Program-made: the position numbers and the translations under genes
The notes under the pieces: model-generated
Seen by the model: only the letters and a program-made list of their open reading frames with translations
Told to the model about the DNA's origin: nothing
Database searches by the model: none
Source: Acidobacteriota bacterium
GTDB lineage: Bacteria; Acidobacteriota; CAIWXX01
Reading direction: 5' to 3'
NCBI GenBank assembly: GCA_016191015.1
Contig: JACPPM010000141.1
Coordinates: 1-36,265, forward strand
Length of the DNA: 36,265 bases
Shown: piece after piece, positions 227 through 20,893 of the stretch
How the letters are laid out: the number at the start of each line of letters is the position of its first letter
Numbering within the stretch: position 1 is the stretch's first letter

Positions 227-3200
227 ATGTTGCCAAGGGTGCATTGTTTCGTCTTCATTATGACGTGCGCGTTCGTTTTCCAGACGTCGCCGCGGTGGGC
301 CGCGGGTGCAGTCTCGGCGGATGCAGTCTGGCGAAGCGTCGACGACGATCAGGTTGGCGGTGGGGACACCGTGCCGCCTCCACCGATTACACGCTACTCA
401 ACATTCCAGTTGAACCGCGGCAAGCTGGAATCAGTTCTGGATAAGGCGCCGATGGAGCTCAGCGTCGATGCCCGTAGGCTCGCGCCGATTCTCGACATCC
501 CGATGCCGGATGGCGGCTACGAGCGTTTCAGGGCGGTCGAATCGCCGATCATGGAAGCCGAACTGGGAGCGCGGTTCCCCGAGATCAAGACGTACAGCGC
601 ACAAGGCGTGGACGACCAGACGGCGGCCGCGCGATTCGACTGGACGCCCCTTGGTTTCCACGCAATCGTGACCTCCTCGAAGGGCACCAGCTACGTCGAC
701 CCGTACAGTCGAGGCGAGACGATGTACTACGTCTCGTACTACCGGCAAGACTACCTGCCTGCGGGAAAGCAGTTCTCGTGTCAGGCGGACGGCGCGTTCG
801 ACCTCTGGCCGGACTCCTCCCCAGCCGGCCTCGCTCCCCTCGCCCCGTCAGGCACGACATTGCGCACCTACCGCGTCGCCGTGGCCGCTACCGGCGAATA
901 CACGGCCGCCTATGGCGGCACGGTGGGCGGAGCGCTGGCGGGGATCACGACGACTGTGAATCGAGTGAACGCGATTTACGAACGTGAGGTGGCTGCGAGG
1001 ATGGTCCTCGTCGGAACCGAGACCTCGATCATCTACACTAATTCGGCGACGGATCCGTACACCAACAACAACGGCTCCACGATGCTGGGCCAGAACCAGA
1101 CCAACCTTGATAGTGTCATCGGAGACGCCAACTACGACATCGGCCATGTGTTCAGCACGGGTGGCGGAGGTGTCGCGTACCTCGGGGTTGTCTGCCAGTC
1201 GGGCTGGAAGGCGCGAGGTGTGACCGGATCTTCGAATCCCGTGGGGGACCCTTTCGACGTCGACTATGTCGCCCACGAGATGGGCCATCAGTTCGACGGA
1301 GACCACACCTTCAACGGCTCCACCGGGAGCTGCGGGGGCGGGAATCGATCGTCAACGGCGGCCTACGAGCCGGGTAGTGGATCGACGATTATGGCCTACG
1401 CCGGTATTTGCGGTTCGGAAGATCTGCAGCCGCACAGTGACGACTATTTCCACACCAAGAGCTTTGATCAGATCGCGGCGTTCATCACCTCGGGCGTCAC
1501 CTGCTCGGCCAACGCAGCCACCGGCAATAATCCGCCCACCATAGAAGCCGGGCCCAGCTACACGATACCAATCCGCACGCCGTTCGTTCTGACCGCCACC
1601 GGCAGCGACCCCGACGGAGACGGCCTCACATACTGCTGGGAGGAGTATGACCTGGGAACGCAGTCCCCGCCGAACACCGACAACGGAAGCCGACCGATCT
1701 TTCGTTCATTCCTGCCGGTCACCTTCCCCTCGCGCATGTTGCCCAGGCTGAGCGATGTCCTGTCGAACACATCCACACTGGGCGAGTCACTCCCCACAAC
1801 CAGTCGAACCATGACATTCCGATGCACCGCTCGCGACAACCGCGCAGGAGGTGGAGGAGTCAATTGGGATTCGACCCAGGTGACATCGGTCACTACGGCC
1901 GGACCCTTCGCAGTAACGGCGCCGAATACCGCCGTCAACTGGGGTCAGGGCACCGGCCAGAGTGTGACCTGGAATGTCTCTGGAACCTCGGCGGCGCCGA
2001 TCAGCACGGCGAACGTCAACATCCTGCTCTCAACCGACGGCGGGATCACCTTTCCGTACACACTCGCCTCCGGCACCCCCAACGACGGCGCCCAGACGAT
2101 CGTGGTCCCGGGTGCGACCACAGCGCAAGCACGTATCAAGGTCGAAGCCGCCGGCAACATCTTCTTCGACATCTCCGACACGAACTTCACCGTCTCGAGT
2201 GGCGGCTGCTCCACAATCACCCTTTCGCCATCGAGCCTCACGGCAGGGACGGTCGGCGCGTCATACAGTCAGACAGTGACCGCGAGCGGCGGCACGAGCC
2301 CATACTCGTACGCGCACACAGCCGGGACACTCCCGGCTGGCCTCTCCCTGTCGTCGGGGGGTGTCCTCTCCGGTACACCATCCCTCGCCGGCTCGTTTAC
2401 ATTTACCCTCACTGCCACCGATGCGGGCTCCTGCACCGGCTCGCATGGCTACACGATCGAGGTCACTGGATCTGCCTGTCTGACGATCAACCTCTCACCA
2501 GCCAGCCTTCCGGCAGGCACAGTAGGGACGCCATATAGTCAACCTGTCGCAGCGACGGGCGGCTCCGCACCGTACACCTACTCGCTCCTCTCCGGAGCCC
2601 TGCCACCGCCCCTATCACTCGCCCCGTCAGGGGCCATCACCGGGACGCCGGGTACCGCCGGAGTCTACTCGTTCACCATTCAGGCAAGCGATGCGGCAGC
2701 GTGTACGGGATCGAAAGCATTCGCACTCACAGTCAATGCGGGCGGATGTCCAACGGTTTCTCTCAGTCCATCGACTCTACCGTCCTCTGAGGTGGGAACG
2801 CCCTACAATCAAACTCTCACCGCCTCGGGCGGCTCGACCCCGTACACATACACGGTCGCCGCTGGCTCGCTTCCACCGGGAGTCGCCCTGTCACCCGGCG
2901 GCGTGCTCTCGGGGACGCCGACATCGGGGGGTGATTACGCCTTCAGTGTCGCCGCGACCGACGCCGCGGGCTGCGCGGGTGTCCAGGACTACAACTTGAC
3001 CGTCAGCGGTGGAGGCGGCTACCTCTACTTCGATGACTTCGAGGATGGAAGCGCCTCCGACTGGCGCCAGGTCGGAGGAACCTGGGGCGTTTCCGCTGGA
3101 GACTTGCGAGGCTCCGCGCGGAAGAAGACGGCGACGATTCTATCGCCGTTTGGTGGATGCACGGCGTGCACGGCCGAGACAGAGTGGCAGGTGACGACGG

Positions 3201-16522: not shown

Positions 16523-19423
16523 CTACCGCTCCCTTGTTGGAGGCATTCCATAAGACTCACGCAACGCCACAGCACGCTTCGCGATCCGACCGAAGCCGCA
16601 TGCCCGCGCGTCTGACTCAACTGTCTCGAGTGACGTCCTCGCCGCGGCGCCCTTTCCCGAGAGCAGGCCAATCTCCGCCTGCGCGAGGCGAGCCTCCAGG
16701 TGAAGCCCCCTGAGCCTCGAACGAGTGGCATCCGCGAGCGCGGCTTGCAAGACCTGCCCCGCCTGCGTGAGGTTGCCCTCTCCGGCACGCACCCGCGCAA
16801 CTGTAAGGCTGACACGGATCCGCACTCCAGCTTCCCCGCAGCTCTCCAGCAACGGTAGGGTCCGGTCGATTGCTGTTTTCGCCTTGTCCAGATCCCCTGC
16901 ACCTAGATGTGCCCGCGCAAGCACGTCCAGCGCGGCCACCTCCCGGTCGAGTACCTTCTCTGATCGGAAGATCCCTGCGGCCTGTTCCGCGGCCGTCGCT
17001 GCATCTGACGGTCTCCCCTCCTCGACCAATAACGATGCCATCGAGAGCAGGCTCATGGCCCGTGGCAGTGCCAGGCGAAGCGACTCCCGTATCCTGGCGG
17101 CCTCCTCCAACTTCTGTCGGGTCCCGATGAGATCACCTTGGTCGAGCAGGACGTCGCCCTGTGCCTGGAGCGCATGCCCTTCGATATTCTTGTTACCCGA
17201 CTCGCGGGAATAAGCAATCGCCCCCGAGAGGGACTTCGCTGCCTCATCCAGGTTCCCCAATTGGAGGTGCAGCACTCCCAGGTTGATGAGCGCCTCGGCG
17301 GCGCGCAGTTTGTCTCCGGCTTTTGTCGAAATCGCGAGTGCCTCCCTGTACAACCCTAGAGCTGTCTCCCGATCGTCCTCCTGCCACAACATGAAGGCGA
17401 GATTACTCCTGGCCTGCGCCGCGCCCCGACTGATCTCGCTCGTCCGGCGGGTCGCGATCGCATCCCGGGCCATCTTCTTGGCAGCCTCCCGGTCCCCGAG
17501 TTGCCAGATCACGATTGCCATGTTGTTGAGTGCCGAAGCGGCTCCCTCATCGTCTTCGATCTCCCGGTAAATCGACGTCGCTTCCTCGAACGTCCGACGT
17601 GATTCCTGCCAGCTCCCCTGGATTCGAAGGAGGACCGCGAGGTTGTTGAGAGCCCACGCCTCACCCTTCCTGTCTCCGAGTGCGAGGAATAGCTTGCGCG
17701 CCTTCAGGTAGTTCTCCGCCGCATCTGCCAAATTCCCGCGATACTGGTGGACCACCGCGAGATTGACGAGCGCTCGGAGCTCTCCGGCCCGATCGCCCAC
17801 CTCGGCGTAGCCAGCCTGGGCACTGGCGAAGCTGTCGCCGGCCGCCTCGTGATCCCCGAGGTCTCTCAATGCCTCTCCTTCCAGCATCCGGCCTTGGGCC
17901 GCGACGAGACGCGCGCCCACCCTCAGCGCATTCTCGGCGGCGGTCTTCGCGGCTGATCGTTGCGAATGCAGATCGCCAACGGACTTCGCGGCGGCAGCCT
18001 CCGCCAGATCGATCCTTGGATCGCCGCCCAGTGGTCCCGGGAGTTTCCGGAGCGAGGCAAGGGTCGCCAGCGCATCCTTGTGCCTTCCGCTCACAACCTG
18101 TGCCGTCGCGAGCCGGAGACCGTAGTCTACACTGTCCGGAAACTCGTGCCAGATCGCGGCATAGATCTCCACGGCCTTCTCCCACTCTTTGGCGCGTTCC
18201 CGATATCGGGCCTCAATCACGAGCCTGTCCTCGGTCGAGAGCCTCTCCGACATCTGATAGGCCAACTGCGCCTCGTGTCTCGATCGAACATCGTACCCGA
18301 GGGCGAGCCATGTCTCCGAAAGCGCCACGTGTGCGAACGGATACTCCGGCTCAATCTGGATTGCCTTCTCGAGCTGATCTCGCGCGGCCAGCGCATCGAA
18401 AAAGCGGAGTCGTTCGACGCCCTGCGAGTAGTATTGGAGAGTCCCGGTCTTGGAAGGGAGCGAAGACATGAGGGCGGCGGTCCGCGGCGCGTCCAACGAA
18501 GGCGAACCGAGTTGTCTGCGGAGATCGGCACCAAGCCCGCTGACAAGGGCGAGAAGCTCTGAGTCGGGGCCGGTCCTTGTTCCCACGGCCGTTGTTTCAC
18601 CGTTCACAGCGTCTTGGACGCGCACATCGATCCGTACTCCACCGGACAATCCCCCAGCCACAGCAACGTACGATCCCAGGACGACCAGGTCGGCACCGAT
18701 GCTCGCATGGATGCCGCGGAGAGTGTCGGACGCGCTGGAGGCCTCGCCGGTCTCGATCTGCTCTGGCGCCATGTACTCAGGAGTTCCAGCGAGGACAGCC
18801 GTGGACACGGAGGGACTGTGGACATCGAGTGGCCCCGTGCTTCGTGCCAAGCCGAAATCGGTCAATACCGCCTTCAGTGACAGCGGCTGGTCGTCTGTCC
18901 CCACCAGCAAAACATTGCTCGGTTTCAGGTCGCGATGGAGCACCCCTTGCGCGTGGGCGGCCTCAAGCCCGGCCGCCACCTGGCGAATGAGTGGCAGTGC
19001 ATCCTGCGGGCTCAGCGGGCCCAAGCGATCGAGGCGTTGAGCAAGAGTCTCGCCTTCGAGAAACTCCATCGTCAGGAAGACGACACCCTGATCGCTTTCT
19101 GTCGCGCCACCCATCGCGTGTCCGAGATCGTAGACTCTGCAGACATTCGGATGGGTCACCCTTCGAGCCAGCAGCACCTCGCGACGCAACCGATCCGCTG
19201 CCCGCGGCTCCTGCGCCAGGTCGGGGTGGAGCACCTTGAGGGCGACTCGCTGGTGTAGCTCCTCGTCCACGGCTTCGTACACTTCGGCCATCCCACCCTC
19301 GCCGATGAATCGGACAATCCGATATCTCCCGGCCACGAGCTCATCAGGGCGGAAGGTCCGCGCACCGGTTAGGCCCCGGGGCGATTCGCCGGGTTGAGTG
19401 GGCACCGTGCGACCGTCACTCAT
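16523..19423 (-). CDS. Ser/Thr kinase-FlgO-like-TPR protein with missing kinase C-lobe
   Basis: A 966-aa protein. Residues 33-232 are a Hanks-type kinase N-lobe and active site: IGEGGMAEVYE (40-50), VALKVLHP with Lys63, HRDLKPSN with Asp165, TDFGLA with Asp189, and GTPEYMAPEQ (213-222). At about residue 233 the kinase stops and the sequence continues directly as TLRGIHASIGADLVVLGSYV, which is the middle of the FlgO/TolB-like domain that in related proteins follows a membrane helix. So helices F-I of the kinase, the membrane segment and the start of the FlgO-like domain are missing, in frame. The rest (about 330-966) is a long TPR array. Without the C-lobe, kinase activity is doubtful. It lies 23 nt after the receptor remnant, in the same operon. 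The Shine-Dalgarno sequence is weak. Confidence 0.85.
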   Translation of the reverse strand: MSDGRTVPTQPGESPRGLTGARTFRPDELVAGRYRIVRFIGEGGMAEVYEAVDEELHQRVALKVLHPDLAQEPRAADRLRREVLLARRVTHPNVCRVYDLGHAMGGATESDQGVVFLTMEFLEGETLAQRLDRLGPLSPQDALPLIRQVAAGLEAAHAQGVLHRDLKPSNVLLVGTDDQPLSLKAVLTDFGLARSTGPLDVHSPSVSTAVLAGTPEYMAPEQIETGEASSASDTLRGIHASIGADLVVLGSYVAVAGGLSGGVRIDVRVQDAVNGETTAVGTRTGPDSELLALVSGLGADLRRQLGSPSLDAPRTAALMSSLPSKTGTLQYYSQGVERLRFFDALAARDQLEKAIQIEPEYPFAHVALSETWLALGYDVRSRHEAQLAYQMSERLSTEDRLVIEARYRERAKEWEKAVEIYAAIWHEFPDSVDYGLRLATAQVVSGRHKDALATLASLRKLPGPLGGDPRIDLAEAAAAKSVGDLHSQRSAAKTAAENALRVGARLVAAQGRMLEGEALRDLGDHEAAGDSFASAQAGYAEVGDRAGELRALVNLAVVHQYRGNLADAAENYLKARKLFLALGDRKGEAWALNNLAVLLRIQGSWQESRRTFEEATSIYREIEDDEGAASALNNMAIVIWQLGDREAAKKMARDAIATRRTSEISRGAAQARSNLAFMLWQEDDRETALGLYREALAISTKAGDKLRAAEALINLGVLHLQLGNLDEAAKSLSGAIAYSRESGNKNIEGHALQAQGDVLLDQGDLIGTRQKLEEAARIRESLRLALPRAMSLLSMASLLVEEGRPSDAATAAEQAAGIFRSEKVLDREVAALDVLARAHLGAGDLDKAKTAIDRTLPLLESCGEAGVRIRVSLTVARVRAGEGNLTQAGQVLQAALADATRSRLRGLHLEARLAQAEIGLLSGKGAAARTSLETVESDARACGFGRIAKRAVALRESYGMPPTRER

Positions 19424-19446
19424 CTTGCCGGCGCTCTACGTGATGC

Positions 19447-20142
19447 TCAGAATGAATACCGGAGTCCCAGGCGTACGGTCCGCGGATAGAGAAGGTCTGT
19501 CACCTGACCCGTCAGGCTGCGGCGGGGATCAGTGGCGCTGAACGCTCTCTGCAAGACGTTCAGCGGAGTGTTCCTGTTCAGCGCGTTGAACACGTCGAGA
19601 TCAAGGTTGATGATCCCCCTATCGGCGAGCGAGATTGATTTGGAGATCCGGGTGTCCAACTCGACCATGTTCGGGTACCTCCTCTCCCCTGCAACGTTGG
19701 TGCGGACAGCCTTCGTGGAGGAGCCTGGATCGACGAAGAAGAGCACCCTGCAATACATCACCGGAAAGCCCTCACGGGACATCAAGTTGGCCGCCACGTT
19801 CACACCGTACGGCAACTGGTACATGCCATTCCGCACATGAGTCGTGAACCCGTCCAACTCACACAGCAGATCGTAAAGCCCGGGAGAGAGGCGAAGATAT
19901 CGGAAGTTTCCCAGAAGATCAGTGGTCTCCGCCATCGTGCCAATGAGCTGACCGGTGAGGGTGACCGTCGCCCCAGGGAGAGCTCCGCCAGTTTGGTCGA
20001 ACACGCGGCCATAGATGTGACCACTGTCTTGTTGGGCGTGAACGGGAGTGCCGGCCGACAGCGCGATCACCGACAACAGACTCAATCGGGCCGGGCCTCC
20101 GAGAATTCGCACAATCGGCCACGTGCCTCCTAGGCGAGACAT
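19447..20142 (-). pseudogene. Oar-like TonB-dependent receptor, internally deleted remnant
   Basis: A 231-aa open frame made of the two ends of a receptor that is normally about 1000 aa. Residues 1-35 are a signal peptide (ending GTPVHAQ), and 40-104 are the N-terminal carboxypeptidase-regulatory-like domain (GHIYGRVFDQTGGALPGATV, LSPGLYDLLCELDGF). At about residue 105 the sequence jumps to outer-membrane barrel strands typical of the receptor C-terminus: NGMYQLPYGVNVAANL, SREGFPVMY, LDLDVFNALN, and the terminal RTVRLGLRYSF ending in Phe. The plug and most of the barrel are absent, so transport function is lost. AGGAGA lies 8 nt before the ATG, so the gene is probably still translated. It is the first gene of the operon with the kinase gene. 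Confidence 0.8.
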
Positions 20143-20817
20143 CTGCGCATTCTCCTATCGGGCCTGCAAGCTGCCCCGAGAACCCGTCATATGGTCGACG
20201 ATCTCACATGCACCCCGAGCCGGTCAAGCGCGTCCGAGGGCCGTCCGCCGTCCAGACATGCTCCGGCAACCAGTCTCAACCTCATCGGCTCCTCTCCTCT
20301 CGATCATCAGCCGAAGCGGATGTCGACCCTGGGCACGAGATTCATTGGGAACCCCTCGCACGGCAAACACGGGACCCGGCCCTTCATCAGCTTCTCAGTC
20401 CCGCCGCAAAGGAGAATCGTCCGCGCCGTCGGGCCGTCTTCCAGCGAACCGAGCAGCGGCCCGGCATGCTTGCTGAGGACGCGATCTTGGGCTCGGCTCT
20501 GAGCCAGGCCGACGTGCTCAACGTGTGGCGCGTCCTCCGCGTACAAGCCATGTCGATCTACCGGTCCCTCTTGATCCGAGGAGAAAGAAGCTGCCTCGGA
20601 TAAGCACGCAAGATTACCAGACTAGTTCCACAAACGCTTCGCATGCGGAATCGTACAGGTCACATTGACAGCCATTCGCGCCGTGGGTCGAAGGACATGC
20701 ATGTCACACACACACGCCTTTCGACCGCCTTACCCGGTGCGCACATGAGCCCCGCACAGCAATCTCATGGGCTTGGGATCGAGGCGTGGCGGCTCGGCGT
20801 TCAGGAGTTGGAGGAAT
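20143..20817. other. Long gap without a recognisable gene
   Basis: 675 nt between the receptor remnant and the tRNA. Open frames on both strands lack ribosome binding sites and family signatures. The minus-strand frame 20307-20546 shows a faint heptosyltransferase-like C-terminal pattern, too weak to call. No promoter or palindrome stands out. It may be eroded sequence from the same decaying block. Confidence 0.4.
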
Positions 20818-20893
20818 TGGTGGAGCTGAACGGGATCGAACCGTCGGCCTCTTGAATGCCATTCAAGCGCTCTCCCAGCTGAGCTACAGCCCC
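20818..20893 (-). tRNA. tRNA-Ala (anticodon GGC)
   Basis: The minus strand folds into a complete 76-nt tRNA. The acceptor stem is GGGGCTG/CAGCTCC with the G3:U70 wobble that identifies alanine tRNA. The D-arm contains GTAGCTCAGCTGGGAGAGC, the anticodon stem-loop is CTTGA-ATGGCAT-TCAAG with anticodon GGC, and the T-arm is CGGTTCGATCCCG. CCA is encoded at the 3' end (20818-20820). No intron is present. It lies downstream of recO on the same strand but has its own promoter. Confidence 0.97.

Follow-up and report, generated by a model that had tools for sequence, protein, structure and literature searches.

Two adjacent genes on the minus strand of a 36,265-nucleotide stretch of an acidobacterial contig (the window) encode a TonB-dependent receptor and a Ser/Thr kinase that lack internal regions present in their homologues, and both are still open reading frames. 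The question is whether these short genes are remnants of a lost pair, products of an erroneous assembly, or parts of a system that is still in use. The explanation that we favor, with a probability of about 0.77, is that a redundant receptor-kinase pair was recently inactivated by one internal deletion per gene, probably at short direct repeats. The features on which the analysis is based are the following.

16523..19423, minus strand: Hanks-type Ser/Thr kinase-TPR gene (P0001), internally deleted; 966 aa, compared with 1112-1200 aa in intact homologues
18725..18739, minus strand: kinase join, directly after the APE helix, where the Ala-Ser-Asp that starts helix F is fused to the middle part of the domain that separates kinase and TPRs; both sides of the alignment overlap here, with a possible short repeat around (C)CCGACA, deduced from paralogues
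19424..19446, minus strand: intergenic gap between receptor and kinase genes, 23 nt, GCATCACGTAGAGCGCCGGCAAG, read from the sequence
19447..20142, minus strand: TonB-dependent receptor gene, internally deleted (Oar-like; CarboxypepD_reg N-terminus plus the last barrel strands); 231 aa, compared with 961-973 aa in intact homologues
19829..19832, minus strand: receptor join at residues 104/105, from the homologue alignment; homologue residue ~92 is joined to ~841-853, and the blocks meet at 19831/19830
20147..20156, minus strand: AGGAG region resembling a Shine-Dalgarno sequence, ahead of the receptor start, read directly from the sequence, at a plausible distance from the ATG

Extent of the deletions in the receptor and kinase genes

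The receptor was compared with six full-length homologues of 961-973 aa, two from the genome of the window (6.43 Mb in 349 contigs), where they lie on contigs C68 and C168, and four from G001, an uncultured Acidobacteria MAG of CAIWXX01 that was the sole other genome of the class compared. For the kinase, seven intact kinase-TPR homologues of 1112-1200 aa were used, six from the window's genome (contigs C68, C198, C219 with two copies, C288 and C312) and one from G001. No closer relative with an intact locus was present in the collections searched, where two contig scans returned only the sister MAG and distant matches; a plasmid search was negative, and a literature search for the architecture gave no match. 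A preliminary description of the locus had proposed a large in-frame internal deletion in each gene, and the two-block alignments to the six receptors and the seven kinases bore this out. The breakpoints that it gave, 18724 and 19830, were right within a few bases, and the 23-nt spacing and the good ribosome binding site of the first gene (AGGAG before the receptor ATG) were found as described.

The alignment of the short receptor with the six homologues was confined to residues ~20-104 and 105-231, encoded by blocks that abut in the window (20085..19831 and 19830..19450), and in two homologues the N-terminal block extended to residue 120 (BLASTP). Between these blocks 745-757 aa of the homologues are missing, and with them the plug and the greater part of the barrel: the short receptor does not have the plug and the complete outer-membrane barrel of the six homologues. 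The CarboxypepD_reg domain is retained (PF13620, residues 43-105, E 8.8e-10, Pfam), and so is the C-terminal aromatic residue of the last strand, as the protein ends RYSF, like its homologues. Oar-like TonB-dependent receptors (PF13620 plus PF25183), which are abundant in Acidobacteriota, share with the short receptor the signal-peptide-like start, the PF13620 domain, the conserved last ~127 residues and the C-terminal Phe, but not the absence of ~750 aa, a loss that takes in the entire plug and the greater part of the barrel. Transport is impossible for a TonB-dependent receptor that is devoid of these parts.

In the window, at 19783-19830 (minus strand), the join exchanges the last CarboxypepD_reg strand for NGMYQLPYGVNVAANL, which is similar to the usual ending of the domain; this likeness is probably a coincidence. 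Upstream of the receptor gene come a tRNA-Ala gene (GGC; 20818-20893, minus strand) and then recO and a gene for an Era-like GTPase. The intact receptor of contig C68 is preceded, at a distance of 10 nt, by a 249-aa ORF (583-1332, plus strand) that by eye resembles an ECF-type sigma factor and gave no Pfam match at E<=1e-3.

Residues ~20-233 and 229-955 of the kinase aligned with the seven intact homologues, and the ~195-205 aa that are absent correspond to the C-lobe after the APE motif, the membrane segment and one half of the domain that comes after it. The N-lobe and the catalytic motifs (G-loop, Lys, HRD, DFG and APE) are present in the alignment, and a TPR array follows the kinase match (Pfam). 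The Pfam Pkinase match (PF00069) covers positions 1-179 of the 263 of the profile, whereas 252-254 is reached in intact relatives, and the complete C-lobe (helices F-I) is lacking, with profile positions 180-263 absent. P0001 ends earlier than all other N-terminally complete kinase matches above 45 bits in the genome; two weak fragments are the only matches that end before it. Hanks-type Ser/Thr kinases fused to TPRs (PF00069 plus TPR_12) have in common with P0001 the glycine loop, the VALK Lys, HRDLKPSN, DFG, APE and the full TPR array; unlike them, P0001 stops at profile position 179 of 263 and is devoid of helix F and what follows it, of the membrane segment and of half of the following domain. 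An active fold is not expected of a Hanks kinase whose C-lobe is missing from helix F onward, despite its HRD, DFG and APE motifs. The domain between kinase and TPRs had been called FlgO-like; no FlgO model matched P0001 or its intact relatives at E<=1e-3 (Pfam).

This intermediate-domain/TPR module also occurs without a kinase in three ORFs, L091 (932-4018, minus strand), L092 (2217-4610, plus strand) and L093 (1488-3866, minus strand), the first of which begins with a Trans_reg_C winged-helix domain. The proteins with this module appear to form a family of modular sensors whose N-termini can be exchanged.

Both short products are almost certainly inactive in the roles of their families, since one has lost the receptor plug and barrel and the other the kinase C-lobe. 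Intact paralogues of both genes remain in the genome, so that this loss is tolerated.

Short forms, assembly and related remnants

It had been pointed out that exactly these short architectures, if found elsewhere as a family form, would speak against deletions. Queries spanning the joins were run against Acidobacteriota genomes, 396 for the receptor and 297 for the kinase, and outside the window no credible contiguous match across either join was found in them. The matches stopped at or near the joined residues, and the few weak ones that passed a join were in long open frames or of low identity, which fits full-length proteins aligned by chance. As the short forms are absent from the other Acidobacteriota genomes searched, a normal short architecture of the families is ruled out within these collections, and we leave it next to no probability.

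The main alternative to a recent inactivation is an artefact of the assembly or of a mixture of strains, in which the joins would be confined to the assembly or to a minority of the cells, the resident genes being intact. The fragmentation of the genome (349 contigs) and the multi-copy nature of the families speak for this alternative, but the homology at the junctions, as estimated from paralogues, is below ~10 nt and thus shorter than the usual assembler k-mers, so that a false join driven by repeats is unlikely. The middle of the receptor, moreover, was not found as an orphan piece elsewhere in the assembly, where it occurs solely within the full-length frames of other receptors; each join preserves the frame exactly, and the neighbouring genes of the pair appear whole by Pfam. 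We regard this alternative as unlikely.

Damaged members of both families were observed at other loci. The receptor subfamily of G001 comprises four intact genes and two C-terminal remnants:

G001 contig C137, 5132-5455, minus strand: receptor remnant in which residues ~567-587 are joined in frame to ~876-963, preceded by a stop and lacking an N-terminus (L087)
G001 contig C52, 185-355, plus strand: receptor remnant with residues 908-963 only, adjoining unrelated sequence (L088)

In the window's genome, a Ser/Thr kinase domain on contig C328 (5299-5927, plus strand) is split over two overlapping frames (profile positions 1-97 and 82-202), and is either a damaged kinase gene or the result of a sequencing frameshift, and contig C110 carries a short fragment of the kinase family. 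Together with the receptor remnants, these cases indicate that internal deletion or truncation affects these multi-copy families in both genomes, while intact copies remain. Within the short flanks examined, 14 other kinase homologues had no receptor homologue next to them; on contig C68, receptor and kinase are ~4.8 kb apart and convergent.

Junctions and retention of the reading frame

In the favored explanation, the locus was a two-gene unit that would have encoded an outer-membrane TonB-dependent receptor and then a Ser/Thr kinase with TPRs. Each gene would have suffered one internal deletion, in separate events, probably via illegitimate recombination or replication slippage between short direct repeats, so that the receptor would lose the plug and the greater part of the barrel, and the kinase its C-lobe from helix F onward, together with the membrane segment and a portion of the domain after it.

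The kinase join in the window reads GCG TCC GAC ACT CTC; the paralogues have, e.g., GCC TCC GAC ATC on the left side and GCG CCC GAC ACC on the right side, and the ends of the deletion could have shared ~6-10 nt around GCG(T/C)CCGACA. At the receptor join, CAT GTG CGG AAT GGC, the shared part could have been ~3 nt (GTG). These repeats were deduced from paralogues of 40-60% identity. The window itself contains no notable repeat that falls at both joins, and the D4 repeat (23 nt, 74%) lies near the joins, not at them, and is chance-like. From the junction codons a short-repeat deletion is plausible, and the common deletion mechanism suggested earlier is to that extent worth considering. Between strains of Haloquadratum walsbyi, many deletions are reported at direct repeats of 4-20 bp (PMC3119063); the present pair shares with them the large size of the deletions and ends that are compatible with short repeats, but differs in that its repeats are deduced from paralogues rather than seen in an intact allele.

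The preliminary description took the chance of both deletions staying in frame as about 1 in 9, and read the retention of both frames as possible evidence of selection. We counted all identical 6- and 8-mer pairs located 300-2600 nt apart in the intact homologues (the first 1700 nt in the case of the kinases). The distance was a multiple of three in 57% (6-mers) and 63% (8-mers) of the receptor pairs, and in 45% and 53%, respectively, of the kinase pairs; codon-shuffled controls gave about the same values as the real sequences, and base-shuffled ones ~33%. Repeats of 6-8 nt are codon-phased, so that 45-63% of the deletions between them are in frame, and the probability that both deletions are in frame by chance is ~0.25-0.33 (1 in 3 to 1 in 4) if short repeats were used, which replaces the earlier figure. 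In addition, had the pair been out of frame, it would not have stood out as two open genes, and the C137 remnant of G001 has a similar in-frame join with no translated product to protect. There is thus no statistical case for selection from the in-frame retention.

Age of the deletions or constraint on the frames

No stop or frameshift is present in the ~1,197 codons of both ORFs, for which ~1.1 nonsense mutations and ~3.6 indels (~4.6 in total, from the actual codons and assuming 0.1 indel per substitution) are expected per 1% of neutral divergence. Unless the frames are constrained, neutral divergence since inactivation would be below ~0.6% (95%), a rough bound because some indels preserve the frame. 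Regions essential to both families are lost, as in pseudogenes, and no further disabling mutations were found in the two ORFs: the kept parts retain 0.90-0.91 of the invariant columns, and the intact paralogues 0.68-1.0. The intact frames and the retained columns fit recent events. The lack of stops and frameshifts would be compatible with either recent inactivation or continued constraint, and recency fits it without an extra assumption.

Constraint would mean that selection kept both frames, either because the short proteins still act, i.e., a secreted CarboxypepD_reg domain with few strands and a half-kinase with TPRs, or because translation through the first gene avoids polarity on the second. 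The clean frames and the invariant residues, held as well as in intact paralogues, agree with this, and the kinase-less proteins L091, L092 and L093 of the same genome make a TPR-only role conceivable; these proteins, however, retain the half-domain that is absent from P0001. The frequency with which codon-phased repeats would leave both genes in frame and the lack of any relative with the same short form (396 and 297 genomes) also count against selection, as does, weakly in view of the shallow alignment, the AlphaFold model of the short receptor, in which only the N-terminal domain has any confidence (mean pLDDT 39.6). We consider such selection improbable, and give even less credit to a working miniature pair, expressed and maintained, in which a periplasmic or outer-membrane CarboxypepD_reg fragment would accompany a soluble, catalytically dead kinase-TPR scaffold.

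With the recent inactivation of a redundant pair as the preferred reading, the locus as such represents ordinary gene decay, and truncated pseudogenes of this kind will be listed as ordinary genes by gene callers. The general by-product of the analysis is the phasing of repeats, by which 45-63% rather than 33% of deletions are in frame, so that in-frame deletions that are counted as evidence of selection need correction for codon-phased repeats inside high-GC3 genes.
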